Of a stretch of DNA of 64,000 bases, positions 519-20,103 are shown one piece after another. The first letter of the stretch is position 1. Each line of letters begins with the position of its first letter. Under the pieces are notes generated by a model, which had not been told where the DNA came from, searched no databases, and was given only the letters and a program-made list of their open reading frames with translations. The stretch lies in assembly GCA_945862215.1 (NCBI GenBank), contig CAMAXY010000003.1, positions 1 to 64,000 on the forward strand, written 5' to 3'. Made by a program: the position numbers and the translations under genes. The DNA is from Singulisphaera sp. GP187 (lineage in GTDB: Bacteria; Planctomycetota; Phycisphaerae; Phycisphaerales; SM1A02).

Positions 519-1061
519 ATGTACGGAAAGCAAACACAGCGTGCGATTGGGGCGATGAGTCGCCTTGCGGAAGTTTGGGATGGTGCCCAAACGCGCTTGT
601 CAGCAGTTGATATTGCACAGCAGCGAGCCCTTCCCGGGCCGATGCTCGCAAAAATTTTGACATCACTCTCGCAAGCAAATCTCATCGTCGGCTCGCCAGG
701 ACCTGGCGGCGGATATGCACTTTCACGAGCGCCTGCGGAGATTTCGTTTCAGGAGGTGGCAGACGTCTTTGAACGTGAAGATCCATCAAACCTCTGCCCT
801 TTCGGCGGAGGTATATGCGGCGTTGGCAAAAATTGTGCACTCCATGACAAGCTTGTTGAAGTGCAGCGAACTGTCAAAACTTTCCTGGCGGAGACAACAT
901 TTGAAATTTTTCGCCGCGCTGCACAGGACGAAGAAATTGATGCTGAAGCTGTTGCTGTTATCGCATCAGTCATGCCAAGCGCGATCGCAGGTGCCATCGC
1001 AAATGACAACGGAAAATCACCTCGTGAAAGTTTTCGAGTCCGCGAACGGCGGCCGCTCTAG
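519..1061 (+). CDS. Rrf2 family transcriptional regulator (Cys-containing)
   Basis: N-terminal winged HTH with 'GSPGPGGGYALSRAP' and the cluster C-P-F-G-G-G-I-C-G-V-G-K-N-C. Confidence 0.9.
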   Translation: MYGKQTQRAIGAMSRLAEVWDGAQTRLSAVDIAQQRALPGPMLAKILTSLSQANLIVGSPGPGGGYALSRAPAEISFQEVADVFEREDPSNLCPFGGGICGVGKNCALHDKLVEVQRTVKTFLAETTFEIFRRAAQDEEIDAEAVAVIASVMPSAIAGAIANDNGKSPRESFRVRERRPL

Positions 1062-2404: not shown

Positions 2405-2911
2405 TTGTACGGAAAGCAAACAGAATGTGCAATCGCAGCGGTCAGCAGACTTGCGGAAATTTATGACAACGGGGTATCGCGACTCAACGCTGAAGAAATT
2501 GCTGTTGCGCGAGGACTCCAAGCTCCATTCGTTGCAAAGATATTGACTGCACTCTCCATGGCTGGAATCGTCCGCGGATCGCGTGGACCTGGTGGTGGAT
2601 ATACCCTCACTCGCACGCCGAAAGAGATCACGCTTCGCGAAATCCATAACCTCTTCGAAAGACCAGACACAAGTCCAAACTGTCCATTCGGTGGCGGAAT
2701 ATGTGGAGCTGGATCCCCCTGCGCATTGCACGATTCGCTCGTCGGCCTTCAGGGAAACGTTGACCAATTTCTTGACAAGACAACATTTGAGGCATTTCGC
2801 GTTGCATATCAGGAACAAGGACATCGCCCAGTTCCATCGGGAACAAAGCCGAAGGTTGCTCGCCGAGAAAGCTATCGCGCACGAAAGCCGCGGTCACCCA
2901 AAGCTGGGTGA
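2405..2911 (+). CDS. Rrf2 family transcriptional regulator, paralogue of 519..1061
   Basis: TTG start after 'aaaggagat'; MYGKQTECAIAAVSRLAEI...GSRGPGGGYTLTRTPKEIT...CPFGGGICGAGSPC, collinear with the first Rrf2. Confidence 0.9.
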   Translation: MYGKQTECAIAAVSRLAEIYDNGVSRLNAEEIAVARGLQAPFVAKILTALSMAGIVRGSRGPGGGYTLTRTPKEITLREIHNLFERPDTSPNCPFGGGICGAGSPCALHDSLVGLQGNVDQFLDKTTFEAFRVAYQEQGHRPVPSGTKPKVARRESYRARKPRSPKAG

Positions 2912-2968
2912 TTTCACTGGGAGCAGTCGCTCCCTCGCAGTCGCTCCCTCGAAAACTCTGTCTCCCAG

Positions 2969-4201
2969 TTAGGCCTTCACCCCAACGGTGGCGAACGCTT
3001 CACCCGTTGGAGCGAGCAAGTTTGCTGTTTGCGGACGCCAACTCGACACGTACTTGGGATCCTCAATACTGATTGCTTCCTGCGTTGGCGCGAGGGGGCG
3101 GAATGTATCGCACATCACAGCGAGTTCGTTCGTTGAATGCTGATCCATCGTTGCTTCAACGGTGCCAGGATGTGGACCGTGTGCAATTCCCAGAGGATGC
3201 AATGTCATTGAACCCTCTTCAACTCCCCTCCTCGCCGTGTAGTGACCATCAGCATAAAACATCACTTCGTCGCTATCGACATTTGAATGCGCGTATGGCA
3301 CACGAATGGCTTCTGGATGAAAGTCGAGTGGTCTTGGGCAGAAACAGCAAATCACCGCGTTGTGCCCTTCGAAGACCTGATGGACTGGTGGCGGTTGATG
3401 CAATTGTCCAACGATCGGCGCGAAGTCGAGCGCATGAAAACAGTACGGCCAACAGACGCCGTCGAATCCAACGATGTCCATTGGATCGTGCGCATATCGA
3501 AAAGAATGCAGCGCTCCACGCGCCTTCACGATGACTTCATACAACCCATCAACCATTGCACTCTTGGGAGTTCCAAATGGCCCTTGAGGTGGACGAATGT
3601 CACGCTCGCAGTACGGGCTATTCTCTAGAAATTGCCCGACGCCTCCCTGCCGATACCGTGGTGGCGCTTGCACATGTGACCCGTTGACAAACTCCATCGT
3701 CACAAACCGCGCACCAGGTGAGTCGAAATCCATTCGATAGATAGTTCCCTTTGGAATGACAACAAAGTCTCGCGCATGCATCTGAAGTCGTCCGAAAATC
3801 GTGGTCAGCAATCCAGATCCACACTGAAGAAATATGCATTCATCAGCTTGACCGTTCTTGTACAGCGTCGGCATCGATTCCTTCGCAACGCACATCGATA
3901 TTTCGACATCTGCATTGCCAAGCAACACTTTACGACCTGTAATTGGATCGCCTTCTGGACGCAGATTCTGAGTGCGAAGATGCCGCATGCGAAGCGCACG
4001 CTCCTGCACATACGTTGGCTCGACGACACGACTCATTTCGCATGACTCGACTGCCGTTGGGGGATGCCGGTGATAGATCGTGCTCATCGTGCCAGAGAAC
4101 CCTTCGTTCCCAAAGACTTCTTCGAAAACAAGATGGCCGTCGACCATATGACGAACATGACGCTTGTGAGGAATCGAACCACGTGCGATATAGAAAGACA
4201 T
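2969..4201 (-). CDS. hmgA: Homogentisate 1,2-dioxygenase
   Basis: 410 aa; 'RGSIPHKRHVRH', 'GSMTLHPLGIAHGPHPG', cupin-like HGD architecture; adjacent to the HPPD domain. Confidence 0.88.
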   Translation of the reverse strand: MSFYIARGSIPHKRHVRHMVDGHLVFEEVFGNEGFSGTMSTIYHRHPPTAVESCEMSRVVEPTYVQERALRMRHLRTQNLRPEGDPITGRKVLLGNADVEISMCVAKESMPTLYKNGQADECIFLQCGSGLLTTIFGRLQMHARDFVVIPKGTIYRMDFDSPGARFVTMEFVNGSHVQAPPRYRQGGVGQFLENSPYCERDIRPPQGPFGTPKSAMVDGLYEVIVKARGALHSFRYAHDPMDIVGFDGVCWPYCFHALDFAPIVGQLHQPPPVHQVFEGHNAVICCFCPRPLDFHPEAIRVPYAHSNVDSDEVMFYADGHYTARRGVEEGSMTLHPLGIAHGPHPGTVEATMDQHSTNELAVMCDTFRPLAPTQEAISIEDPKYVSSWRPQTANLLAPTGEAFATVGVKA

Positions 4202-4256: not shown

Positions 4257-6365
4257 TCAGAGATTTCCGCGGCGCTCTTGCTCTAATTCCAACGCTTCAA
4301 AAAGGGCTTTAAAATTGCCTTTTCCGAAGCCTTTTGCACCTTTGCGCCCAATGATTTCGACGAATAGCGTTGGTCGGTCTTGGACAGGCTTTGTAAATAC
4401 CTGAAGGAGATATCCCTCTTCGTCGCAATCGAGGAGAAGTCCAAGCGATTTCACGCGAGCATGCGACTCATCGATGGATCGCCCGAGCGCACCTTCAACT
4501 CGATCCCAAACACTTTCGTAATACGTGTCGGGCAATCCTAAAAACGCAACGCCACGACGGCGCAGTTCGCCGACGGTTGCGAGTGCGTCACTCGTTCGAA
4601 ATGCCAAATGCTGGACGCCAGGAGTTCCGTCATGCCAATCCAAATACTCCTGAACCTGACTCTTACGCAACCCTGCTGCCGGCTCATTGATTGGAATCTT
4701 GAGGACGCTTCGACCGCCGTCCATCACCTTGGACATCAACGCTGAATATTTCGTTGAAATATCTTGGTCATCAAAGTGCTTGAACAACTTGAACCCAAAC
4801 ACTTCGCTATACCAGTCCACCCATGTATTCATTTGGCCAAGCCCCACATTGGCAACGCAGTGATCGACAGCACAAAGGCCGCATGGTCGCTGGATATTCA
4901 GGTCATTCATTGGATCATTGACGACCTTTCTGAAATTCGGCGCGAACAACTCCCCCATATTCCCATTCACATCACCACATCGACCGCGGCGACTGACAAG
5001 GCTGTGAACGCATCGACCAAATGCCTGAATGCCTGAAAAAACAGCGACATCGTCGCCATCACGAATTTCAACTGGCTCGTATGCACTCTTCGCACCATTG
5101 CGCAAAGCCTGCTCATACGCAGCTTCTGCGTCGCGCACAGTGAAAGCGACATCGCTGACTCCGTCACCATATCGCGCAACATCCAAACTGGCGGGATGAT
5201 TTGGCGTCAAGCCCGTCATCAGCATGAGGCGAATGTCGCCTTGAACAAGAAGATGGCATGCTTTATCGCGACTCCCTGTTGTCAGATCGCTGAATTGATC
5301 CGCCATGAATCCGAAGTTCGCTCCGTAGTACGTACGAGCTTGGAGCGCATTTCCAACATGCAGTCCAATGTGATCGACTCCAAGAAGCGCCAGTGGATCT
5401 GCGGGCGCACTTTGAAGGAGGGTTGGCGATGCAGAATGTGTTACAGCATGCGATGCATGATTGCCATTTGCAGAGTGTTCTTTGTTCTTCGAACAAGCCG
5501 AACCATTTCGACACGTTCCACCGCAACCAACCTTTGGTGCGCCTTCGGTGTCGAGGTAGGAATTGATTTGAGCCAAATCATCGAGCACGAATAGTTGCTT
5601 CTGGAAGTGATCGATTTCGAACGATGTCGCGGCGACAATCGCAGGATCAAATGGGCGCCGAATGACTTCGGGCGACTGCAAGCAATAAAGTGATTCCGCA
5701 GGCGACGATGCAAGACCCGCACCAAGAATTCGAATGTGATCTTGCTCGCGAATCAGGCCAAATTCAACAGTAAACCAGAGCACATTGGTCAGGCGTACGA
5801 GTTGTGCGGCATCCGCCTTGACTCCCGCGTGACCGAACCTTTCCAAGATTCGGGCCATCTGCTTGTCTGCACAGAGCGGCGTGTGGCCAAAGATGTCATG
5901 AAATGCGTCAGGTTCTGGCAAGTATCCCTCGTGCTCGGGATCGCGAACAACGACCGTCACAGGGAGGATCTTGCGAGCGAGGCACGCGAAAAATGCACGG
6001 GGGGGCAAGTAACCAGTCACCGCACGAACTTCCCACCCCGTCAGCGATTTGAGTTTATTCGAAACGTCTGCGATCACTGGAACATGGTCGTGGTCAATCT
6101 CAAGGGCACGCGCTCCATCGAGCCAATGCGTACTTGCATGGAGCGGAAGGTATGTACGTTGCTGTTGGCAGAGTCGACTCCAAATCTGATGCTCACGGGG
6201 CTCATATGCGACAAAGTTCTGCCGAACAAATATTGTCTCTAACTCTGGAAGATCGTCTGATCCAGTTTCGTATTTCGCAAGTGCGACGCGAGAGGCTGCG
6301 ACCTCCAAAGGATCCAACACACAAGGGTGAACGATTGTCGGCATTGATTTCATTGCAAATCTCAT
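4257..6365 (-). CDS. Fusion protein: phenylalanine 4-hydroxylase domain + 4-hydroxyphenylpyruvate dioxygenase domain
   Basis: Uninterrupted 702 aa ORF. N-terminal part has aromatic amino-acid hydroxylase motifs (PEPDAFHDIFGHTPL, FTVEFGLI). C-terminal ~375 aa is HPPD (VDHIGLHVG..., VDHCVANV, GVQHLAFRT, LFVEIIGRKG). Cys-rich linker GCGGTCRNGSACSKN. Confidence 0.9.
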   Translation of the reverse strand: MRFAMKSMPTIVHPCVLDPLEVAASRVALAKYETGSDDLPELETIFVRQNFVAYEPREHQIWSRLCQQQRTYLPLHASTHWLDGARALEIDHDHVPVIADVSNKLKSLTGWEVRAVTGYLPPRAFFACLARKILPVTVVVRDPEHEGYLPEPDAFHDIFGHTPLCADKQMARILERFGHAGVKADAAQLVRLTNVLWFTVEFGLIREQDHIRILGAGLASSPAESLYCLQSPEVIRRPFDPAIVAATSFEIDHFQKQLFVLDDLAQINSYLDTEGAPKVGCGGTCRNGSACSKNKEHSANGNHASHAVTHSASPTLLQSAPADPLALLGVDHIGLHVGNALQARTYYGANFGFMADQFSDLTTGSRDKACHLLVQGDIRLMLMTGLTPNHPASLDVARYGDGVSDVAFTVRDAEAAYEQALRNGAKSAYEPVEIRDGDDVAVFSGIQAFGRCVHSLVSRRGRCGDVNGNMGELFAPNFRKVVNDPMNDLNIQRPCGLCAVDHCVANVGLGQMNTWVDWYSEVFGFKLFKHFDDQDISTKYSALMSKVMDGGRSVLKIPINEPAAGLRKSQVQEYLDWHDGTPGVQHLAFRTSDALATVGELRRRGVAFLGLPDTYYESVWDRVEGALGRSIDESHARVKSLGLLLDCDEEGYLLQVFTKPVQDRPTLFVEIIGRKGAKGFGKGNFKALFEALELEQERRGNL

Positions 6366-6467: not shown

Positions 6468-8015
6468 TCACATCAGCCAAGTACAGACCACTGTGATCAC
6501 AATCACCGCGCAGAGATTCAACAAAAAACCAACCTTGATCATTTCTCGAACTGGAATCAATCCCGTTGAAAAAATGATTGCATTGGGCGGCGTCCCAACA
6601 GGAAGCATGAACGCGAGACTTGCCCCAAGTACTGCGGTGACGACCAATTTCTCAGGAGCGATTCCAAGCCCTGGCGCCATCGCACCGAGAATCGGGACGG
6701 CCGTTGCGGCAAGCGCCGTATTCGAAGCAATCTCACTTGCGAAAATCATAATCGTCGCAACTCCTGCAATGATGAAAGGTTCAGGAACCCCACCGAGCCC
6801 GGTGACGCTTTGAGCGATCATCTGTGAAACACCCGTTCGCTGCATCGCGTCGGCGAGGCTCAGTCCACCGCCAAAGAGAATGAAGACACCCCACGGCAAT
6901 CGCTCCGTTTGCGACCACGGCACAATGGGCGTTGCACTGCCCCGCGCTGCTGGCAATATGAAGAGCGCAATCGCTGCCGCGACGGCGATAAGCCCATCCT
7001 TCAGCATCAAATCTGGAACCAAGGATTTAAGGAACGGTGCACCAACCCACGAGACCACTGCAACTCCAAAGATAATGAGGGTCAATTTTGCCGCGCGGGT
7101 CAGTGGAACTTGAGGGGATCCGGGGCTTGAACCTGCTTCGCCGATGTCCGTGTTCGGTCGGCGCAATCCATGAAATGGAAAGACGAACCAGAAAATGAAC
7201 TGGGCACAGAGCATCATCAGAACTCCAGCCGGAACTCCGACCGAAGCCCACCGAACAAAGTCCATGCTGCCACCGTTCGCATTGATCCACTCGACTCCGA
7301 TGGGATTGGGTGGACTGCCAAGCACGGACATCACACCGCCGATGCTGGCGCCGTATGCGATTGCTAACAGAACCGCCCGCTGAAAATTTGCCGTGGCCTT
7401 GATGGTCGCGCCATCGGCCGTCCCCTTGACTGCATACATGGCAACTGCGGCAGTTGCGAGAGGCAACATCATGGCCGCCGTCGCTGTATTGGAAACCCAT
7501 GCGCTGATCAGCGCTGCCACGATCAAGAAGGCTGCAACAATTCGACCGGGCGAATCTCCGATACAGCGAATCGTCAATAACAAGAAGCGCTTTCCAAGTC
7601 CGTGTTGCTCAAGCGCAATCCCCAGCACACATCCACCTGCAAAGAGGAAAATGACGTCGTTCGCATATGGCGCTAAAACTTGCTCCGCCGTTGATGCACG
7701 CAAGAGTGGGAGCACCACGATTGGCAATAGACCCGTCACTGCAAGATCGACCGCCTGCGTCGCCCACCAGATTGCCATCCAACCAAGCAATCCGATCACC
7801 ATCGCCCCTGCCGAGGAAAGGGCCGCTGAATCAGACGTGATTGGACGGAAGTACAACCAGAACAAGAATCCCACGAGGGGTCCGATGAACAGCGAGACCA
7901 GTCTCCGCGTGGTCCATGAATCATTGCAGGATTCATTTGATTTGCTCACATCGAGCAGAATACCTAACCGCATCTCACTGGTTATCCAATGAACAAACGT
8001 GATCAGCCAAATCAC
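6468..8015 (-). CDS. SLC13/DASS family Na+/dicarboxylate-type symporter
   Basis: 515 aa polytopic; 'VSNTATAAMMLPLATA' and 'ASNTALAATAVPILGAMAPG...LPVGTPPNAIIFSTG' (paired SNT motifs). Confidence 0.88.
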   Translation of the reverse strand: MIWLITFVHWITSEMRLGILLDVSKSNESCNDSWTTRRLVSLFIGPLVGFLFWLYFRPITSDSAALSSAGAMVIGLLGWMAIWWATQAVDLAVTGLLPIVVLPLLRASTAEQVLAPYANDVIFLFAGGCVLGIALEQHGLGKRFLLLTIRCIGDSPGRIVAAFLIVAALISAWVSNTATAAMMLPLATAAVAMYAVKGTADGATIKATANFQRAVLLAIAYGASIGGVMSVLGSPPNPIGVEWINANGGSMDFVRWASVGVPAGVLMMLCAQFIFWFVFPFHGLRRPNTDIGEAGSSPGSPQVPLTRAAKLTLIIFGVAVVSWVGAPFLKSLVPDLMLKDGLIAVAAAIALFILPAARGSATPIVPWSQTERLPWGVFILFGGGLSLADAMQRTGVSQMIAQSVTGLGGVPEPFIIAGVATIMIFASEIASNTALAATAVPILGAMAPGLGIAPEKLVVTAVLGASLAFMLPVGTPPNAIIFSTGLIPVREMIKVGFLLNLCAVIVITVVCTWLM

Positions 8016-8021
8016 ACTGGA

Positions 8022-8486
8022 TCAATCAGAACTTTTGGATGCGACGACTGCACCCCACGATGCGATGCTTCCGCGAAGATCACTCATGGATACTCGTGCA
8101 TGAGACTCGTCCAAGAATGCGATGATGCCCGACCCCATTGCAGTGTGTGCCGAGGACTTCACTAGAAACGAAGCGGATTCGGCAGGCAACCAAGCCTTCC
8201 CCTGATAATCGCGAACAAATTGCGAAGTGACTTTCAATGTTGTATTCGCCTTCATGTAATCAAGCATGCAGCCGATATCGTCAAAGACAACTGCCTCAAC
8301 ACCATCTGGACTCCCCACCAGCAAACATCCCGCACAGCGCTGATCAACAATACTCATCTTGCATTCTGCGCATTCATCTCGACCAAGTCGCAGCTCTGGG
8401 GGGCCCACTGGTATCGCAGGAGCGCATCCATTTAAAACCACGAATCCCGTGACGAGTAGCCAAGTCATCAACTGATTGCGGCTCAT
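8022..8486 (-). CDS. nosL: Nitrous oxide reductase accessory lipoprotein NosL
   Basis: Lipobox 'VVLNGC' and 'CAECKMSIVDQRCAG'; ATG at 8486; overlaps nosY. Confidence 0.9.
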   Translation of the reverse strand: MSRNQLMTWLLVTGFVVLNGCAPAIPVGPPELRLGRDECAECKMSIVDQRCAGCLLVGSPDGVEAVVFDDIGCMLDYMKANTTLKVTSQFVRDYQGKAWLPAESASFLVKSSAHTAMGSGIIAFLDESHARVSMSDLRGSIASWGAVVASKSSD

Positions 8487-9418
8487 ATTGGGGACCTTCT
8501 CGAGAAGATTGACGCAGCAACTGTCAGTGGAAGAATGATCCATAAGACCATGACGCATGCAAAGATCCATGTCACACCTGCGCCCCATATGTCTGTTGCA
8601 TACAGCCCGGCTGGACCAAGAACGTCGAGGGATGTATCTGAACTAACGAGCGCCCACATCTTGAAAACTTGCATCGGGTTGACCAAACTGAGCGCAAAAA
8701 GATTTTCAATTCGCATTCGAAGTGCGACTGCGCCAGCCATCAATCCAAGGTCACTGACGAAGACAAGCGTGAGCCACGAAAAGATTGCGACGCCCATCGC
8801 CACACTGCTCTTGCGCGTGGCGACCGAGATCATCAGTCCAGTTCCAAGCATCGACATCGCAAGAAGAAATGTCAGTCCCACGAGAGAAGCGAGTGCGACG
8901 GGGTCAGTGCGGGACCCTTTCCATGCCAAAATTGCAGCGCACACTCCAAATCCCAAACAGATCGATGTCAGAAGGACTGCCGCAAGCCCAGTGAATTTCC
9001 CGAGCAATAATTCGAGGCGTGTAATCGGCTGTGCCAACATATACGCCAACATCCCCCGCTCGCGATCCGATGCAATTGATCCTGCACCAGCGCTCAGCGC
9101 CATGAGAGGGACAACAAGAATCACCAAATTGATCAACCCTGCGGTTGTTCGACCGAATCCAGAGAGTCCGCTTCCTCCAGAGCTGGCTGCGGAGACATAG
9201 GAAACTCCAAGCCCAAGCGCCACAAATGCCGCTGTATACAGCAAAAACCACCGACTCCTTGCTGATTCGCGCAACTCGCGAGCTGCGATTCGAAAAACAT
9301 TTGATGCAAAGGACGGGACTCGCAACCGTCCATGATGTGAGACTGCGACGACGGCGACTGTTTCGACTCTCCCAACCAATCCGCCACTTTTCAAATCAGA
9401 TTGGACAACATTATGCAT
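8483..9418 (-). CDS. nosY: ABC transporter permease NosY
   Basis: ~6 TM segments, 'ERGMLAYMLAQPITRLELLLGKF'; between nosF and nosL. Confidence 0.88.
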   Translation of the reverse strand: MHNVVQSDLKSGGLVGRVETVAVVAVSHHGRLRVPSFASNVFRIAARELRESARSRWFLLYTAAFVALGLGVSYVSAASSGGSGLSGFGRTTAGLINLVILVVPLMALSAGAGSIASDRERGMLAYMLAQPITRLELLLGKFTGLAAVLLTSICLGFGVCAAILAWKGSRTDPVALASLVGLTFLLAMSMLGTGLMISVATRKSSVAMGVAIFSWLTLVFVSDLGLMAGAVALRMRIENLFALSLVNPMQVFKMWALVSSDTSLDVLGPAGLYATDIWGAGVTWIFACVMVLWIILPLTVAASIFSRRSPI

Positions 9419-10115
9419 GACGAACCTCCGCAGCGTGAAACTTGAGATGACTTGCCGTCATGCTTGCATCGAGCAACTCTGCCGGCGAGCCTTCACGCTG
9501 AAGACGCCCCCGCTCCAGTATCGCCACACGATCTGCAAGAGTATGAACCTCATCTTGTCGGTGTGAAGCAAACAGCATCGCACGACCATCTTGCGAGAGT
9601 TGCGCGAGCAATCCAACGAGTTCATCGCGCCCCATTGCGTCGAGGCTTGCCGTCACCTCGTCGAGGACAAGGACTGGCGGATCGCCCAACAATGCCACCG
9701 CGAGCGCCAAGCGCTGTTTCATTCCACCAGAGAGTTCGCGAATCCGTTTTCCTGCATGACCGCAAAGACCGACGCCGTCGAGCACGGAGTCTGGATCGCG
9801 CACCGCGACGCACTTCAGTCCGCCGAAAAATCGAACTGCCTCGTGCACACGAAGATCGTCATAAAAACCGATCTCCTGTGGCACATATCCGATGAGACGA
9901 CGCGCCTCCTTGCCGTGGCGCTGAACATCCAAGCCACCGATGCGAATAGATCCGCTATATCGGTAGAGCCCGAGGACACACCGAATGATCGTACTTTTGC
10001 CAGCGCCGTTCGGTCCCCACAGAGCAAGCGATTGGCCGGCTGCGACGGAAAGCGATACGTCATCGACAGCTTGGAAGCGACCGAATGCCATACTCACACC
10101 TTGAATTGAAATCAT
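9411..10115 (-). CDS. nosF: ABC transporter ATP-binding protein NosF
   Basis: Walker A GPNGAGKST, signature LSGGMKQRLALA, Walker B VLVLDEVTASLD. Confidence 0.9.
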   Translation of the reverse strand: MISIQGVSMAFGRFQAVDDVSLSVAAGQSLALWGPNGAGKSTIIRCVLGLYRYSGSIRIGGLDVQRHGKEARRLIGYVPQEIGFYDDLRVHEAVRFFGGLKCVAVRDPDSVLDGVGLCGHAGKRIRELSGGMKQRLALAVALLGDPPVLVLDEVTASLDAMGRDELVGLLAQLSQDGRAMLFASHRQDEVHTLADRVAILERGRLQREGSPAELLDASMTASHLKFHAAEVRHA

Positions 10116-10127
10116 TTAATAATCCTT

Positions 10128-11513
10128 TCATATCACAGCGATGAAGCGGCGCTCCCGCATGGCATCACGAATCGGGCTGAAGAAAACAATTCCAAGAACC
10201 GCTGTTGCAATCGACAACAGTCCAGCGCTCAGCGCAACCATCACGAGTGATGTCGACGATCCAAGTTCAGCACCGTGCTCAATTGGAGGTTCAATCAGCG
10301 GGTAGTAGTCAGTGAACTTCGGTTCAGGTCGCACAGCTGGTACAGCACGAGCGATGAACTCGACTGCTTGGTGGATTGGGCTGAACATAAAGAGACGCAA
10401 ACTCGGTTCACGTGCCGTCAGATTCTCAAAGAGCAGACGCGATTCATAATTTGCCTCGCCGACACCATCGCCATCACGGTCATAGCCGGGATAATCGCTC
10501 CAAAAATTTCCGCGTTCATCGCGATCAAATTCATTTCCCGTCAATTCGCCACGGCCCAAGATGGCAATCTGCTCAAAGTTGTCTACAAAACTGTTTGACC
10601 ACAAATGATTGCCCTTCACCGCGGGCAAAAACTCGACCCCAGTGTCGTTGGCTGAAATGGTGTTTTCTGTGATTCGACCTGAATCTGGGGTTGCGAAGGG
10701 AGAACCATCGATGTAAATCCCCACGCAATTCCCAACGAAAATATTGCCTTGGACCAGAAAGTCATCCGTCTCCTTGAGACCGAGTCCATATCCACTTGGA
10801 CCTCGATTGCGCAACATTCGATTTCCAATCAGCTTCAACTTTGAGCTGTACATCAGGTAGACGCCAACCGAATTGTCGAAGAGGTCATTCTTTTCAATCG
10901 TGACGCCGTTGGAAAACATCAAGTGAAATCCATAACGACCGTCATGAGACTTATTATTTCGCACGATCACATCGGTCGAATACCAAAGAATTGCGTCCCG
11001 TCCATTATGAATCTCGTTGTCCTCGACGATGGTTCGATCTGCGCGCCACAAGCGAAGTCCATCGCCGCGGCGGGCAACATCAAGCACCTTTCCTCCAATG
11101 TGGTTTCCTCTGATGACTGAATCTGGAGACTCTTTCAGATCGATTCCAAACAGCACATCATCAAGAATATTGTCCACGATCGTCACTCGAGCCGCATTCA
11201 CTCTGATTGCGCAATTTTCCTTATCGAGATCGATCCCCGTTCCGCAAATTCGAAATCCTCGAATCTCAACGTCCGGCGCGGTGATCGTGATGATGTCGCC
11301 GTTGCCGCCGCCATCGAGTGTCGGCCGTCCGACTCCAATCAATTTCAGCGGCTTATCAATCCGAATTTCTCCGCGATAGACACCTGTTGGCACCAAGACC
11401 GTATCCCCCGCCTTTGCCGCAGAAATGAGTTGAGAAATATCAACGCTTCCGAAAACCACCTGTGGCCAACACGTCAGTCCGATCGCTGCGAAGATGATGC
11501 CGCCGTATCTCAT
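10128..11513 (-). CDS. nosD: NosD, periplasmic beta-helix nitrous oxide reductase maturation protein
   Basis: Right-handed beta-helix repeats (VRNNKSHDGRYGFHLMFSNGVTIEKNDLFDNSVGVYLMYS...), C-terminal TM; between nosZ/nosB-like and nosF. Start set at ATG 11513 (signal peptide). Confidence 0.9.
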   Translation of the reverse strand: MRYGGIIFAAIGLTCWPQVVFGSVDISQLISAAKAGDTVLVPTGVYRGEIRIDKPLKLIGVGRPTLDGGGNGDIITITAPDVEIRGFRICGTGIDLDKENCAIRVNAARVTIVDNILDDVLFGIDLKESPDSVIRGNHIGGKVLDVARRGDGLRLWRADRTIVEDNEIHNGRDAILWYSTDVIVRNNKSHDGRYGFHLMFSNGVTIEKNDLFDNSVGVYLMYSSKLKLIGNRMLRNRGPSGYGLGLKETDDFLVQGNIFVGNCVGIYIDGSPFATPDSGRITENTISANDTGVEFLPAVKGNHLWSNSFVDNFEQIAILGRGELTGNEFDRDERGNFWSDYPGYDRDGDGVGEANYESRLLFENLTAREPSLRLFMFSPIHQAVEFIARAVPAVRPEPKFTDYYPLIEPPIEHGAELGSSTSLVMVALSAGLLSIATAVLGIVFFSPIRDAMRERRFIAVI

Positions 11514-11517
11514 CTCG

Positions 11518-12186
11518 TTAAATCGATGCTTTCTCTGCAAGCATTCGATCGTAAAGTGGCTTATAAGCACGCCGATGGAAGAAGAGCGCCAATGCAGTCA
11601 AGAGTGAACTTGCGCACGCCAGATACCAACCAGTACCCGCACTCGCGATCGTGCGAAACTGCCCGATGTTGCCGATGCCGAGCGCCGGCGGCACAAAAGG
11701 TTTGACACTCGACGAGAGAGGCGCCGTCGGATCAAGATTATGCCCATGCGAGTAAAGCCAATACTGCAAGTCCACAAGAAAACCCAGCGGAAAGAGAAGC
11801 GCAGGAAGGACCAACAACAAGGCCCATCGACTATGAACAAGTGCTGCACCCTCAACGAGAAAGAGCATTGCGATCACCATCCAAACGCCCATGGCGCGCT
11901 CAAGCGATGCCGCATCGTTCAGCTTGCGCATACCGATGTAATGATTTAATCCATCGATCTCGCGGACATCGCCAACGAGTTGATTCACGTACGCCGTCAA
12001 TTCGAGCCCTTCTGGATACTGCGGCGCCTCAAGCGTCATATGCCAGTACGGCAGGAAAACTGAAACGACCAATGCAATGCGCGCCAACGACAACATCAAT
12101 GGCGGAAGCGAATAACGCATTCGATCTGCACGGACAAACTCTGGCGATACACGAGGTCCAAACACTCTTGAAAGAAAAGGTGACAT
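11518..12186 (-). CDS. Clade II nos-operon membrane protein (NosB-like)
   Basis: ~222 aa with several TM helices, 'LNHYIGMRKL'; located directly between nosZ and nosD, as in Sec-type nos clusters. The NosB label rests mainly on context. Confidence 0.65.
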   Translation of the reverse strand: MSPFLSRVFGPRVSPEFVRADRMRYSLPPLMLSLARIALVVSVFLPYWHMTLEAPQYPEGLELTAYVNQLVGDVREIDGLNHYIGMRKLNDAASLERAMGVWMVIAMLFLVEGAALVHSRWALLLVLPALLFPLGFLVDLQYWLYSHGHNLDPTAPLSSSVKPFVPPALGIGNIGQFRTIASAGTGWYLACASSLLTALALFFHRRAYKPLYDRMLAEKASI

Positions 12187-12227
12187 TCTGTCTCCAATAA
12201 AAGAACGAAACAAAGGCAAATTGAAAT

Positions 12228-12257
12228 GCCTGCGTGGAGTTTTCCCTCCACGCAGGC
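12228..12257 (-). terminator. Perfect 12-bp-stem hairpin between nosZ and the nosB-like gene (terminator/attenuator or mRNA-processing hairpin)
   Basis: GCCTGCGTGGAG-TTTTCC-CTCCACGCAGGC; on the minus strand it is followed by a weak T-rich stretch (ATTTCAATTT). Confidence 0.65.
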
Positions 12258-12267
12258 GATTGCGAAC

Positions 12268-14373
12268 TCAATGAACGGCAGGCTTCACTCGGAAGTATCC
12301 GACCATTTCCAAATGCAGCGCAGAACAGAATTCTGTGCAGTAATAGGGATAAACACCAGCCTTGTTGGCAACGAAGTGGAATGTTGCTGCTTCACCTGGT
12401 TCAAGACTGAGATTGATGTTGTAACCACCAATGCAGAATCCGTGCGTTGCGTCCATCGTGCGTTCCATACTCGTGATGTGCCATGTCACGTTGTCGCCTT
12501 CGTTGACTTCAACATTCTCTGGGAAGTAGTGGCTACGAACCGCTGTCATATAGACCTCCACATTCTTTCCATCACGCACCACCTTCTCTTGACCTGGCTT
12601 TGGAGCCTTGGGATCAATCGCCTGCGTCTGAGGATCCCATCCGATTTCCGGATAGATAGTCCACGGATGCAATTTGTCCGCCTTGATCATCTGGCAATAG
12701 TGTGGCTCGCCAACACCGATCGGACTGTCATAAATGACGGGCATCGCTGTCCCACCCTGCTCAATATCGACAAGTTGGAAATTCTGTGCAAGGAGTGGTC
12801 CAGTTGGAAAGAAGCGATCAATCGCCCACTTATTCATTGCAATCAGATACTTCCCATCGGGCGAAACTGTGTCACCCTCGGCAGAACAGAGATGCCCGAT
12901 GTTGTATTGAACGGGCGTCTTCGATACCAATTTCCAAGGTTGTTCTGGGTGAAGCGAAGAATATTCGCCACCAAGAGTCCACCGCGAAACTGCGGAATCG
13001 AGGAAGAGGGATGTATACGCATATCCCTTGTCATCGAACTGGGTGTGTAATGGGCCAAGTCCGAGTTCGACCTGCGCTTCCATGACTGCATCAAAGTCAA
13101 GAATCGGGATTCCGTAAGAATCCTTGGACGAAAACTTTTTCTCGGCAATCGCCTTCTTGATTTTCTCGGTCGAATAAATAGTCACATGCGGATCAAGTTT
13201 GCCAGCGATCACGACATACTGACCGTTTGGAGTGACATCTACACCGTGAGGGCTCTTTGGTTCTGGCGCAAAGAAGAGAATCCCTTCGGCGATCAGCGTC
13301 TCGATCTTAATGACTGGAAAACCATTGACCTTCTCGAACTTGCCTGCATTGAAAGCAGCTTCCGCTTTCTTTGTATCGATGATGTGCAGATAGTCCATAT
13401 CACGCTGCGTCGTTCCTGCTTCAAACGGTGGCTTGTTCAATTCGATCCCACCTGTTGCAAGTTCGCTGTTGAACGAATTTCCAAAAATCAAACCATCGCA
13501 TGCCAGTTTTCCAGCATCGAAAAGATCCTGCCAATACGGCGGAAGTTCCAGCGCGAATGACTTTGACATATCGATGCGTCCCTTCGCGCGGTCAAACTTC
13601 CAGTATGTCACCATTCCGCGGTACGACTTCTGATACTCATCGCTTGTCGCATACGCATTGCCGAACGGCACTGCGTATTGACCGCCTTCGATGACATAAT
13701 CCGTATTGGGTGTCACGAAGGCTGCACCGTGATCACTCATGGTGATCGGGTTCTTGACGATCTGCTTTGTTTCAAAGTCTCGAAGGTCGATGACCGCAAG
13801 TCGTGCATTGGCTTTATCGCCGATGAATAGAAATTCGCCGTCATAATCACCCTTTGTCTCGCTGAGAGCTGGATGGTGTGTATCGCCCCAACGAAGTTCT
13901 TGATTTGGAATGTCTCCTTCTTTCAGCACGTCGTTGCCAACGCCATATCCATACCCCTGCCATGGCTCGGGCGTGAAGACAGCAATGCTGCGTAGGAGTC
14001 GCATCGACGGAACGCCGATCACAAAGACCTGACCGCTATGCCCACCTGATGCGAACATGATGTACTCATCATGACGCCCACTTGGCTGAAACGTTTTTGC
14101 AGCGGCCATCAAATCGTCTGGAGTTAGTTTTCGATCATTGGCGAGTTTTTGAAGTTGCGCCATATTCTCGGGTGTGAACTCGACTGCTTTCTCTTCCTTC
14201 GCTGCGCCAATCTTCTTCTTTTTCTTTCCCCCATCAGTTGGCGGTGCCTGCGGCGCAGCCATCGCCGACCGTGCAATGCCGACTCCGATCACGGGAAGTG
14301 GTGCGCCAACTGCGATCAACATCGCCAGCGGTAGCGCACATGCGAGAGAAAATTTCGTCTGATTCGTTTTCAT
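12268..14373 (-). CDS. nosZ: Sec-dependent (clade II) nitrous oxide reductase NosZ
   Basis: Sec-type signal without twin arginine (MKTNQTKFSLACALPLAMLIAVGAPLP); CuZ-region motifs (HGVDVTPNG, HTQFDDKGYAYTSLFLDS, GHLCSAEGDTVSPDGKYLIAMNKWA); CuA site PYYCTEFCSALHLEMVGY. Confidence 0.97.
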   Translation of the reverse strand: MKTNQTKFSLACALPLAMLIAVGAPLPVIGVGIARSAMAAPQAPPTDGGKKKKKIGAAKEEKAVEFTPENMAQLQKLANDRKLTPDDLMAAAKTFQPSGRHDEYIMFASGGHSGQVFVIGVPSMRLLRSIAVFTPEPWQGYGYGVGNDVLKEGDIPNQELRWGDTHHPALSETKGDYDGEFLFIGDKANARLAVIDLRDFETKQIVKNPITMSDHGAAFVTPNTDYVIEGGQYAVPFGNAYATSDEYQKSYRGMVTYWKFDRAKGRIDMSKSFALELPPYWQDLFDAGKLACDGLIFGNSFNSELATGGIELNKPPFEAGTTQRDMDYLHIIDTKKAEAAFNAGKFEKVNGFPVIKIETLIAEGILFFAPEPKSPHGVDVTPNGQYVVIAGKLDPHVTIYSTEKIKKAIAEKKFSSKDSYGIPILDFDAVMEAQVELGLGPLHTQFDDKGYAYTSLFLDSAVSRWTLGGEYSSLHPEQPWKLVSKTPVQYNIGHLCSAEGDTVSPDGKYLIAMNKWAIDRFFPTGPLLAQNFQLVDIEQGGTAMPVIYDSPIGVGEPHYCQMIKADKLHPWTIYPEIGWDPQTQAIDPKAPKPGQEKVVRDGKNVEVYMTAVRSHYFPENVEVNEGDNVTWHITSMERTMDATHGFCIGGYNINLSLEPGEAATFHFVANKAGVYPYYCTEFCSALHLEMVGYFRVKPAVH

Positions 14374-14439
14374 GATGCTTCCTCTAAAGTGAGTGCGCCA
14401 GCATTTCTCCGACATCGGAGAGTGCGTGCGCACGGGTTA

Positions 14440-15408
14440 TTAAGGTGATTTTCTGTCACATTCCTGCAAATAGCGCAGGTACGCAATGATTGATCCAAGA
14501 CCTTCTTCGTTCAGCGCCGGATTTCCGCCCTTGGGCGGCATATCCACCTTCGTTGTATTGGCGGGATCGCTTGATGAGCGACCACTCTTTAAAAATGCGA
14601 GCATTTTTTCATCATCAGTTGCGAAAATGAAAGGGCTCTTGACGAGATCCCTGCCGAGCTTGACGATTCCCCGTGCATCTGCGCCATGGCACGAAACGCA
14701 TGAAGCGAGAAACAACTTCTGCCCAGTGCGAATCGACTCTGCGTCATAATCAGACTCTTCGATTCCAGGCAAGGACGCCATCGGTCCAGTCGGCAGCGCC
14801 GCCGGCAAGACGAGAGCCTTAGGAGCAGGCAATACTGCAGGAATTCTCCGCGGGTCTTGGAGCCCGCGCAGATAGACCGAGATTTGACCGATGTGTTCGT
14901 CGGTGAAGGCGGCATTCCCTCCTCGTGGTGGCATGGGGACCTTGGTCGTATTGAGTGGATCCTCAACGCCTCGACCGCGCTTGATGAATTCGACCAACTG
15001 CAGATTTGACTGCTTCTTAACCCATCGACTCATCACAAGATTCTTCCCAAGGTTCGGCACACCCAGTCCAGTCAATCCGTGACACGCAGCGCAAGTCGCT
15101 CCGAAAAGTTGTTTGCCAACGACATAGGTCGCGCCATCGAGTTCAGCCCTAGGAGCTTCATCAGCTCGAAAAAGTGTTGGCAACTCACTGTCTGCATTCC
15201 ATCCCCCTGTACGCGAGACTTGGGTCGCAACCGACACAAGTGAGCCCCACGCCGTCACAGCAACCATCCCGATGGTGGCGAACACTAGGACCAATATCAG
15301 CAGCGCACGTACTTCGCGTCCGCGTGGGTGTAGACCAACCAATCGAGACGGAGCGTCCAAAGATCCGTTGTCTGCATTTCTGTTATCGCGGAAATTGTTG
15401 GTTTTCAT
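14440..15408 (-). CDS. Diheme c-type cytochrome, first gene of the nos operon
   Basis: Two CxxCH motifs (CAACHGLTG, CVSCHGADARG), each with a downstream 'MPPRGG'/'MPPKGG' heme-Met region; N-terminal TM anchor. Confidence 0.88.
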   Translation of the reverse strand: MKTNNFRDNRNADNGSLDAPSRLVGLHPRGREVRALLILVLVFATIGMVAVTAWGSLVSVATQVSRTGGWNADSELPTLFRADEAPRAELDGATYVVGKQLFGATCAACHGLTGLGVPNLGKNLVMSRWVKKQSNLQLVEFIKRGRGVEDPLNTTKVPMPPRGGNAAFTDEHIGQISVYLRGLQDPRRIPAVLPAPKALVLPAALPTGPMASLPGIEESDYDAESIRTGQKLFLASCVSCHGADARGIVKLGRDLVKSPFIFATDDEKMLAFLKSGRSSSDPANTTKVDMPPKGGNPALNEEGLGSIIAYLRYLQECDRKSP

Positions 15409-15706: not shown

Positions 15707-16138
15707 ATGCAAACCCTCTTGAAACTCACTGCTGCACGCTCCGGCGATCGCCTCCAGCTCGTTACGACTGAGGTTCTTGAAATGGGTACGAACATTCTGC
15801 GATTCATCGGCGACATTCGTGCAACACCAGGCCGCTACTCGGTTCAAATTGGATCACGCGAGCATCTCCATCCCCCTGACAGCTTGGCTGACGAACCTCA
15901 TGAGCAGCGTGATCCTCGATTCGTCTGGCGATTCTTAGATCACTCATGCAAGCCCAACGCAAAGGTCGTTGAGCAAAGTCTTGTTGCCCTTCGATTGATT
16001 CAAGTCGGCGAAGTGCTGACCTTTGACTACAACTTGACGGAAGAAGATATGGCGACCCCCTTTCGCGGTGAGTGCGGACACTGCGGCGGCCGCATGATCC
16101 GCGGATTCAAGCACCGTCAACATCCTTCCGCGATCTGA
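15707..16138 (+). CDS. SET domain protein (putative protein-lysine methyltransferase)
   Basis: GRYSVQIG...RFLDHSCKPNAKV...ALRLIQVGEVLTFDYNLTEEDM...CGHCGGRMIRGF: SET core plus post-SET-like cysteines. Confidence 0.85.
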   Translation: MQTLLKLTAARSGDRLQLVTTEVLEMGTNILRFIGDIRATPGRYSVQIGSREHLHPPDSLADEPHEQRDPRFVWRFLDHSCKPNAKVVEQSLVALRLIQVGEVLTFDYNLTEEDMATPFRGECGHCGGRMIRGFKHRQHPSAI

Positions 16139-16164
16139 ACAAGCGGCCTTCTGAGACCACAATC

Positions 16165-19100
16165 ATGTTGCTGCTCCCAGAAATTTTTGACAAGAACGTC
16201 ATCGCGAATCCGCAAGGAATTGCAATCGATATTCCGTCTGGTCGTCGGCATCCCTGCCGCCGAACAATCACGTATGCCCAGCTTCACGCTGCGAGTTGCG
16301 CGATCGCCAATGCAATCGCAGAGTCTGCCAACGTCGCTTCCGATTCAATCGTCGCAATTCTCCTGCCTCGGGATACGGAGAGTTTGTATGCCGCCCAACT
16401 TGGAGTACTCAACATAGGAGCTGCGTTCACTTGCCTTGATCCACTTTTTCCAGATGAACACATTCGTTCAGTCTTGATTGACGCGGATGCAGCTGTCATA
16501 TTGACTGATTGTGTCGGTCGTGAACGCCTTGCAGCCAACAACATTGCTGGCTCACGAATCGTCATCGATGTCAGCACTATTCCAAATGCGACTTCACACA
16601 ATATCGCAGCACGCAATATTGATCCTTGCTCGCTTGCGTATGTCATCTATACATCTGGAACCACTGGCAAGCCCAAAGGTGTGATGATCGAACATCGCAG
16701 CATCGCGAATCTGGTCGAATCCGACCTCAACCGCTTTCGGCTTGGACCAGACGACCGTATTGCGCAATGTTCCTCGCCTGCATACGACTCATCGCTCGAA
16801 GAAACTTGGCTCGCCTTCGCTGTGGGCGCAACGCTTGTTCTTCTCGATGACGAAACCGTTCGACTTGGTCCCGACCTCGTGCCGTGGCTGAATAATGAAC
16901 GCATTACGGTCTTCTGCCCTCCCCCAACGCTGCTCCGATCGACTGGATGCGAAGACCCAGCGCGCGCGTTGCCTCTTTTGAAACTGATTTATGTCGGTGG
17001 CGAAGCGTTGCCACAAGATCTTGCAGATCTTTGGAGTCAGGAGCGCAGACTTGAAAATGGATATGGCCCAACTGAATGCACTGTGACCGTCGTTCGTACG
17101 CAAATCTTTGCAGGCGTTCCAGTCACAATCGGCCGAGCAGTTGAAGGGCATACTGCATACATCCTCGATGACACACTTTGCGAGACCGTTCATGGAAGCG
17201 AAGGCGAACTCTGTATCAGCGGCATCGGACTTGCACGCGGCTATCACAATCGACCCGAGATCACTGCAGAAAAATTTATTGTCCATCCCAAATTCGGGCG
17301 CATTTATCGAACGGGCGATCTGACTCGACTCGCGCCAAGTGGGGACATTGAATATCTCGGCCGCATTGATGGACAGATCAAACTCCGTGGGTATCGCGTG
17401 GAACTTGCCGCAATCGACGCACTTCTCGGTCAGTGCGAAGGCGTTCGCGAAGCCGCTTGCCGCGTGCAAGGCGAAGGCGCTTTACAAATCATCGTTGGAC
17501 ATATTGTGGCGATTTCGCCGAGCCAAAAACCAAATCACGATGCACTTCGCGCTGTACTTGCGCAAACTCTGCCCGCATATATGGTCCCCGCTCGATTCGC
17601 TGAAATCGACTGTGTACCGCGAACTGTTGCAGGAAAGATCGACCGAGCACGCTTGCCCGAAATCAACCAACAAGAAGATCGAAAACGCCCGCTTCAATCG
17701 CCACGCAGCACAATCGAACGGACAATCTGCAATGCGTTCGCTCGCGCAGTCAATCGCACTGGCGAAATCTCGATCGATGATGATTTTTTTATGGCGCTCG
17801 GCGGCGATTCACTCTCTGCCGTCAGCGCAATCTGCGAACTCCGTAAGAATCCTGCGACCGAGCGCTTGAGCGTTCGAGACATATATGAACATCGAACTCC
17901 CGAACGGTTGGCGCAGAGACTTGCCCTGACCGAGGGCTTGCCTGAAGTGACGCATTCTCCCCGAATCCGTGCAGGCATTCGTGCAGACGATCCGAGATTC
18001 GCATCCATTTGTCAAGCACTTGCCCTCCTCGCTCTCGCCATCGCAACTGGCGCAATTTCATATGTCATATTCTTGGGCATCATTCCGTCGAGCTTCGAAA
18101 ACCTTGGATTTGGCTGGTCGATTGCACTCGCGCCCTTTGTAACGTGCGTCGCGATTCTTCTCTTTGGGCTTCTAGCAATCACGCTGACTGTCTCTGCAAA
18201 ACGGATTCTCTTGGGAGAAGTCCGACCAATCACGACCCCAGTCTTCAGCGCAACATATTTGCGTCACTGGATTGTCCAACAATTCGCTCGGTTGATTCCA
18301 TGGGGATTGATCGAAGGAACTGTCTTTTACAATTCTGTTTTACGTTTGCTTGGCGCAAAGATTGGCAAGCGTGTTCACATCCACCGAGGAGTAGAACTGC
18401 GTCGTGGTGGTTGGGACCTGCTGACAATCGGTGATGACGTCACGCTTGCACAAGAATCCACGCTCACTCTGATTGATTTACGCGACGGGCAGTTTATTCT
18501 TGCCCCGATCACAATTCGAGATCGATGCACTGTCGATGTGCGTGCTGGCCTTGGGCAATATGCAGAAATGCAGTCCGATTCGTCTCTCGCACCGCTCTCT
18601 TGGTTGGACAATGGCGCATGCATTCCCCAAGGCGAAAAATGGGATGGTGTTCCTGCAATCAAAGTTGCAATGAACCCAATCGCAATCTCTGCAACACGCG
18701 GGCGATCACTGAATTCAAACATGCACGGATTTCTGATGGTCGGCGCGCGTCTTGCGCTTGGAATCATTGCGACAATTCCTTGGATTATTCTTTCATGGCT
18801 GCTTCACTATGAGTGGAACACCGTTGAACCCTCCATCATTGCAGCAATCATTGTCATCGCATCACCGCTCTGCGTGATCGGGGCGCTCATTACACAAGCA
18901 CTCACCCTCCGCCTGCTCGGCCGTACGAAATCTGGCGTCATCAATCGCTGGAGCGTTGAATACATTTCAATTTGGGCAAAGTCGCAAGCGGTCGAATCCG
19001 CCGGACGTTGGTTGAGCGGAACGCTCTTCTGGCCAACATGGCTTCGCCTGGCAGGAATGCGAATTGGAAAGGGATGCGAGATCTCCACGATCATCGATGT

Positions 19101-20103
19101 CGTTCCAGATACTGTCACGATCGGCGAGACCTGCTTCTTCGCAGATGGAATCTATTTCGCATCGCCGCGTGTCGATCGCAACAGTGTTTTCATCGGCGAG
19201 ACCTCAATCGGCGACAACACTTTTATTGGAAACCACGCTGTCATCTCCGCAGGCTTTACCTATTCGCCAGATTATTTCGTTGGAGTCAGCACCGTCGCAG
19301 ATGCAACTGTCACACACCAGGAAACTGCATGGTTTGGCCATCCTGCGATGCAACTTCCACGGCGAGATGTCGTGAGTGCGGATCGCACATTGACCCACGA
19401 TCCAAATTTTATTCGATACGCAGATCGTTTCTTCTGGGAATTCCTGCGATTCACTCTGCCAATTTTTCCAATTGGAGTTGGCTGGTGTTGGTGGGGTGCA
19501 ATCAATGAATCCGCCAAACATTTCCCGGCAACAATCACAGCGCTTGTCATCGCGCCACTCGCGATTCTTGCTGCCGCTTTCATCATGGTCACTTCGATCG
19601 TCATCCTGAAGTGGGCACTGCTTGGGCGCGTTCGTCCTGGTCAGCACGCGCTTTGGAGCTGTTGGTGCAGTCGCTGGGATTTTCTCTTTGTTGCATGGGG
19701 CTTTTATGCACGGGGAACTCTTGAGCGACTGGACGGAACCATTTTCCTCAATGCGTTTCTGAGATTGATCGGAGTTCGAATCGGCAAACGCGTCGTGCTC
19801 GGGCACGGATTTACTCAAGTGGTCGATCCAGACATGCTTTCGTTTGGCGACGATGCCACAGTCGCCTGCAACTTCCAAGCTCACAGCTTCGAAGACCGAA
19901 TTTTGAAAATTGATTCCGTCCGCATCGAAGATCGTGCGACTCTTGGACATCATGCTGTTCTCTTTTATGGCTCAACAATTGGCAAAGGCGCACTCGTCAC
20001 GCATCACAGTGTCATCATGAAGAATGAGAAGATCGAATCGGATGCGATCTACTGCGGATGTCCGGCGGTTCGGTTAACAGCAAGTGACGTTGATTCGGCG
20101 TGA
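16165..20103 (+). CDS. Pls/PosA-family single-module NRPS-like protein (A-PCP-TM/hexapeptide modules)
   Basis: ~1312 aa from ATG 16165. A-domain motifs YTSGTTGKPKGV, ENGYGPTECT, YRTGDLTR; PCP motif DDDFFMALGGDSLSAV; then TM helices interleaved with three left-handed beta-helix-like modules (LLGAKIGKRVHIHRGVE, LAGMRIGKGCEIS, LIGVRIGKRVVLGHG). Confidence 0.88.
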   Translation: MLLLPEIFDKNVIANPQGIAIDIPSGRRHPCRRTITYAQLHAASCAIANAIAESANVASDSIVAILLPRDTESLYAAQLGVLNIGAAFTCLDPLFPDEHIRSVLIDADAAVILTDCVGRERLAANNIAGSRIVIDVSTIPNATSHNIAARNIDPCSLAYVIYTSGTTGKPKGVMIEHRSIANLVESDLNRFRLGPDDRIAQCSSPAYDSSLEETWLAFAVGATLVLLDDETVRLGPDLVPWLNNERITVFCPPPTLLRSTGCEDPARALPLLKLIYVGGEALPQDLADLWSQERRLENGYGPTECTVTVVRTQIFAGVPVTIGRAVEGHTAYILDDTLCETVHGSEGELCISGIGLARGYHNRPEITAEKFIVHPKFGRIYRTGDLTRLAPSGDIEYLGRIDGQIKLRGYRVELAAIDALLGQCEGVREAACRVQGEGALQIIVGHIVAISPSQKPNHDALRAVLAQTLPAYMVPARFAEIDCVPRTVAGKIDRARLPEINQQEDRKRPLQSPRSTIERTICNAFARAVNRTGEISIDDDFFMALGGDSLSAVSAICELRKNPATERLSVRDIYEHRTPERLAQRLALTEGLPEVTHSPRIRAGIRADDPRFASICQALALLALAIATGAISYVIFLGIIPSSFENLGFGWSIALAPFVTCVAILLFGLLAITLTVSAKRILLGEVRPITTPVFSATYLRHWIVQQFARLIPWGLIEGTVFYNSVLRLLGAKIGKRVHIHRGVELRRGGWDLLTIGDDVTLAQESTLTLIDLRDGQFILAPITIRDRCTVDVRAGLGQYAEMQSDSSLAPLSWLDNGACIPQGEKWDGVPAIKVAMNPIAISATRGRSLNSNMHGFLMVGARLALGIIATIPWIILSWLLHYEWNTVEPSIIAAIIVIASPLCVIGALITQALTLRLLGRTKSGVINRWSVEYISIWAKSQAVESAGRWLSGTLFWPTWLRLAGMRIGKGCEISTIIDVVPDTVTIGETCFFADGIYFASPRVDRNSVFIGETSIGDNTFIGNHAVISAGFTYSPDYFVGVSTVADATVTHQETAWFGHPAMQLPRRDVVSADRTLTHDPNFIRYADRFFWEFLRFTLPIFPIGVGWCWWGAINESAKHFPATITALVIAPLAILAAAFIMVTSIVILKWALLGRVRPGQHALWSCWCSRWDFLFVAWGFYARGTLERLDGTIFLNAFLRLIGVRIGKRVVLGHGFTQVVDPDMLSFGDDATVACNFQAHSFEDRILKIDSVRIEDRATLGHHAVLFYGSTIGKGALVTHHSVIMKNEKIESDAIYCGCPAVRLTASDVDSA

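Follow-up and report, generated by a model that had tools for sequence, protein, structure and literature searches.

A single uninterrupted polypeptide, encoded in the window (the whole 64,000-nucleotide stretch of DNA analyzed here), combines two complete domains, one of an aromatic amino acid hydroxylase and one of 4-hydroxyphenylpyruvate dioxygenase (HPPD). The fusion is a new, lineage-restricted architecture of two well-known enzymes. From sequence comparisons, we judge it probable (roughly 0.78) that the protein is a bifunctional enzyme which converts phenylalanine to tyrosine and 4-hydroxyphenylpyruvate to homogentisate, borrows a general aminotransferase, and derives from a single fusion of operon genes that now forms an accessory catabolic set. 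Table 1 lists the features of the locus.

Table 1. Positions in the window of the fused gene, its parts, and neighboring genes
Feature	Position	Strand	Basis
Fused aromatic amino acid hydroxylase (PAH-like)/4-hydroxyphenylpyruvate dioxygenase, 702 aa	4257-6365	-	Conserved in 7 MAGs
PAH-like domain, residues ~12-273, Fe ligands H156, H161, E201	5547-6332	-	Pfam Biopterin_H and 1LTU alignment
Variable linker, residues ~274-320, conserved C281, C285, C291	5406-5546	-	Fusion alignment
HPPD domain, residues ~321-702, Fe ligands H502, H586, E670	4257-5405	-	TIGR01263 above cutoff and 1T47 alignment
Homogentisate 1,2-dioxygenase-like protein (HGD), 410 aa	2969-4201	-	Pfam HgmA_N and HgmA_C above gathering
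Rrf2-family regulator, convergent with HGD	2405-2911	+	Profile match and synteny
DASS-family anion symporter, immediately preceding the fusion in g1	6468-8015	-	TIGR00785 above cutoff
nos cluster: clade-II (Sec-type) NosZ, NosD, NosL, ABC permease/ATPase pair, c-type cytochrome	8022-15408	-	

Domains and iron ligands of the fused protein

The reading frame starts with ATG and has no internal stop. Residues 52 to 269 match Biopterin_H (PF00351) with 152 bits against a cutoff of 22.7, while residues 329 to 702 match the 4HPPD model TIGR01263 with 352.2 bits against a cutoff of 277, covering profile positions 2 to 353 of 353. The hydroxylase motifs HDIFGH (H156 and H161) and EFGL (E201) line up with FHDLFGH and YTVEFGL in Chromobacterium violaceum phenylalanine hydroxylase (PAH; 1LTU), and alignment to the S. 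avermitilis HPPD 1T47 places the three ligand regions of the second domain at DHCVAN (H502), VQHLAF (H586), and VEIIGR (E670). The ligand role of the aligned positions in both templates is established. Profile matches and aligned ligands thus uphold the original prediction that an intact hydroxylase and an intact HPPD share one 702-residue frame. Modeling with AlphaFold (8 sequences) gave a good PAH half, with pLDDT mostly 75 to 95, and a poor HPPD half (mean pLDDT 56, pTM 0.41).

Compared to known systems, the N-terminal part has in common with PhhA/PAH the catalytic domain, the HDxFGH motif, the EFGL glutamate, and the core length; in contrast to those enzymes, it is joined to HPPD, falls below the NCBIfam PhhA equivalog cutoff, and sits on a long divergent branch. 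The scores against the two phenylalanine-4-monooxygenase equivalog models were 218 versus 264.75 (TIGR01267) and 230.8 versus 247 (NF008877), and we therefore call the domain only PAH-like; a standalone PAH encoded elsewhere in the genome passes one of these two cutoffs. The C-terminal part shares with HPPD the full-length match, the three iron ligands, and the conserved C-terminal GNFKALFEALELEQERRGNL, whereas the hydroxylase and the Cys-containing linker are additions. Another enzyme N-terminal to an HPPD-like domain is found in the dehydroshikimate dehydratase QuiC (NF042435), but its partner enzyme and pathway differ, and the fusion matches NF042435 in the HPPD-like part only.

Recurrence, linker, and selection

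Three independently assembled contigs carry an intact fusion, CAIXJC010000011 (99% identity), CAJCCX010000178 (100%), and SYHM01000111 (65%), and a family-wide search of 181 genomes added G135, G140, and G143 of a second genus (73 to 76%), the G143 copy ending at a contig edge. Altogether, it is carried by seven metagenome-assembled genomes (MAGs) of uncultured freshwater planctomycete bacteria, which belong to two genera of one Phycisphaerales family and whose copies share 65 to 100% identity. Wherever the respective region is present, the aligned copies keep both sets of iron ligands, and all three linker cysteines are kept; no active-site residue has been lost in either domain. That every carrier is a MAG might raise the suspicion of an assembly or sequencing artifact, but open fusions in independent assemblies, spanning this range of identity and two genera and sharing a conserved linker motif, leave that explanation next to no probability. 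A missed stop or a chimera is, for practical purposes, ruled out by the independently assembled contigs, and the frame proves to be the natural fusion it had been proposed to be.

Beyond the family, the fusion was not seen in 382 Planctomycetota genomes (from a phylum-wide sample of 392) or in a sample of 399 Pseudomonadota genomes, with limited candidate scoring per genome; its outside distribution is thus read from about 780 other genomes of these two phyla only. Within this coverage, the fusion appears to occur only in a few genomes of a single family. No description of a PAH-HPPD fusion was found in the literature searched, a search outside of which lie subscription journals and protein databases. 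On Sphingobium plasmids, the PAH and HPPD genes adjoin but stay separate.

The two domains are joined by the linker GCGGTCRNGSAC, which, as predicted, is Cys rich. Its residues C281, C285, and C291 are conserved in the three fusion lineages, while the remainder varies in length and sequence. None of the unfused PAHs examined has the motif in its tail, which rules out a leftover PAH tail. Cysteines are likewise absent from 59 of 60 unfused HPPD leaders, the exception being the HPPD of an unfused operon in G126, whose N-terminal leader has a CCCC cluster (L118, ~2950-3016, minus strand) where the fusions have the Cys-rich linker. The Cys segment could possibly derive from such a leader, and a metal or redox role of the linker is conceivable. 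A more elaborate proposal, that the Cys(-His) linker handles iron or acts as a redox module for the two Fe(II) oxygenase sites and that the set is tuned to low oxygen, strikes us as distinctly unlikely; the low-oxygen part is suggested by a nitrous oxide reductase cluster in two genera and a cbb3 oxidase on one contig, both adjoining the locus.

Between the two genera, pN was 0.24 against a pS of 0.76 in the PAH half and 0.11 against 0.81 in the HPPD half. Across divergent copies, among which synonymous positions are saturated, pS ranged from 0.76 to 0.83 in both domains, and pN ranged from 0.24 to 0.30 in the PAH half and from 0.11 to 0.15 in the HPPD half. The PAH parts of G000 and G008 differ by one synonymous and three nonsynonymous changes, a number too small for a verdict. 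With pN lying far under pS in each domain, both halves are constrained by purifying selection, the PAH half more loosely. Its faster evolution and the long stem on which the fused PAH sits in our tree suggest that the substrate or activity of the hydroxylase may have shifted. It is therefore conceivable that one half, likeliest the hydroxylase, now acts on another substrate or serves as a regulatory or structural module, which would make the protein in effect an HPPD carrying an added hydroxylase-like domain. The equivalog scores and the QuiC precedent in NCBIfam fit this alternative as well, but the iron ligands and their surrounding motif are kept in all fusions having the region, and pN remains far below pS between genera; on balance, we regard a changed hydroxylase as unlikely.

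Probable operon ancestry and resident genes

In six genomes of the family, the gene order of the fusion locus recurs with PAH, HPPD, and HGD as separate genes. The PAH stop and HPPD start overlap by 4 nucleotides (ATGA) in G106, G063, and G120; in G126, PAH and HPPD share a reading frame and are parted by a single TGA and a short gap. These four operons resemble the fusion locus in gene order, in having HGD immediately downstream, and in encoding the phylogenetically nearest HPPDs, but they keep as two genes what is one in the fusion. In trees that were quick, with long branches and an uncertain sister order, the fused PAHs, the fused HPPDs, and the linked HGDs each formed one clade (100*), and the fused HPPDs grouped with the operon HPPDs (94 SH-aLRT), apart from the standalone HPPDs of their own genus. 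As fused and standalone copies fall into separate clades, a recent duplication of resident genes is ruled out. The window copy has a closer relative in G135 (genus g55) than in G007, a member of the window's own genus.

The simplest history would be one in-frame joining of adjacent genes of a PAH-HPPD-HGD operon, with the fused set later inherited by or transferred between the two genera. The fusion had been predicted to join nonconsecutive steps, and it does; because it derives from a gene order that unfused operons of relatives display, no particular reason has to be sought for the skipped aminotransferase step. Close relatives still carry both the fused enzyme and what are likely its prefusion states, with genes that overlap by 4 nucleotides or share a frame broken by one stop, and the case shows how neighboring genes for nonconsecutive steps of a pathway become one protein.

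The fusion-bearing genomes of the window genus also hold a standalone PAH (seen in G000, G008, and G012), a standalone HPPD, and a second HGD, the latter adjoined by fumarylacetoacetase. The standalone PAH lies beside chorismate synthase (aroC) and aroDE, and the standalone HPPD lies beside aroA. Two relatives contain true remnants of the fusion. G013 (L057, 5893-6750) has kept the linked HGD, while fusion residues ~78 to ~481 are mostly deleted and the pieces are out of frame; G004 (L060, 3796-4104) retains only a 96-residue fragment beside DASS and Rrf2 genes. These decayed copies imply that the fused set is dispensable. It appears to be an accessory second catabolic set that is lost or decaying in some relatives. 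Small extra HPPD matches in G000 (C80) and G017 (C33) were rejected as remnants, being standalone HPPDs cut by contig ends.

In bacteria lacking TyrA, PAH is a route of tyrosine biosynthesis (PMC7311316). Using PF02153 and PF20463, models that were positive in at least 12 of 14 control genomes, we detected neither TyrA half in G000, G008, and G012. Both halves were found in only 3 of the 19 genomes of the genus, and a fourth gave a weak PF02153 match below the cutoff; TyrA was thus undetectable in 15 to 16 of the 19. Because TyrA went undetected and shikimate genes adjoin the standalone PAH, this enzyme may be biosynthetic, supplying tyrosine, and the fusion may be catabolic; a divergent TyrA or tyrosine auxotrophy are possible alternatives. 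The pattern points to a division between a tyrosine-making and a tyrosine-degrading hydroxylase in TyrA-less bacteria.

Proposed pathway and neighboring genes

In the reading that we prefer, one polypeptide would house two mononuclear Fe(II) oxygenases independent of each other. Phenylalanine would be hydroxylated to tyrosine by the N-terminal domain, using O2 and a tetrahydropterin; a general class I/II aminotransferase from another locus would yield 4-hydroxyphenylpyruvate, from which the C-terminal domain would form homogentisate with O2. The neighboring HGD would then open the ring, and the fumarylacetoacetase of the resident cluster would complete the breakdown. Both activities are inferred, as are which aminotransferase takes part, how the two PAHs share the work, and any benefit, for instance from fixed stoichiometry or colocalization. 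PhhB-type pterin carbinolamine dehydratase (PF01329) is encoded in all 19 genomes of the genus. PF00155 aminotransferases gave no match in the window, as expected from the earlier claim that none is near the fusion; the nearest on the contig is a weak match at 75.7 kb, and several occur elsewhere in the genome. The Pseudomonas phhABC cluster encodes PAH, carbinolamine dehydratase, and aminotransferase (PMC1173090), a phenylalanine-to-4-hydroxyphenylpyruvate module of the same catabolic route. In that cluster, the dehydratase and aminotransferase are linked to PAH, whereas the fusion locus has neither nearby and is linked instead to HPPD and HGD functions.

The HGD frame begins 55 bp past the fusion stop, just where a homogentisate dioxygenase had been reported. 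It scored 40.6 against a cutoff of 20.2 for HgmA_N and 27.8 against 21 for HgmA_C but only 68.7 against the 510.75 of the TIGR01015 equivalog, and the resident HGD had no TIGR01015 match at 1e-20. As both fail this model, the HGDs represent a divergent subfamily of the lineage. In all lineages whose contigs extend far enough, HGD is linked to the fusion, and this linkage of a homogentisate-destroying enzyme speaks against the notion that homogentisate from the set goes into pyomelanin or some other product instead of yielding carbon and energy. Two complete PAH/HPPD/HGD sets per genome do seem redundant for simple catabolism, and PAH is tied to pyomelanin in Legionella (PMC3458870); nevertheless, we consider a pyomelanin-type role very unlikely and favor breakdown.

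The Rrf2-family protein convergent with HGD is a candidate regulator; in G007, G013, and G004, its gene still adjoins HGD or the fusion remnant. It and a second Rrf2 regulator (519-1061, plus strand) flank an MFS transporter, and both are kept in G013; the two share the motif CPFGGGICGxGxxCALHD, which resembles a set of Fe-S ligands. A promoter scan found nothing above chance.

Upstream of the fusion lie the DASS gene, which also adjoins the remnant in G004, and then NosL, the ABC permease and ATPase, NosD, NosZ, and the c-type cytochrome. The nos genes, fusion, and HGD are syntenic with those of G135 of the other genus, and G008 has a cbb3 oxidase on the other side of the locus. In G063, an unfused PAH-HPPD-HGD operon is followed by nrfH, nrfA, and nos genes (L125, 6805-16001), a second case of an O2-requiring pathway beside genes for N-oxide respiration. 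Linkage of the pathway to nos genes was seen repeatedly. Elsewhere in the window, a 1,343-residue Pls/PosA-type single-module NRPS-like protein (16072-20103, plus strand) adjoins the nos cluster, and a reading frame at 49155-50651 (plus strand) contains a long run of near-perfect proline-rich repeats of the EPAPTDEPAP type.
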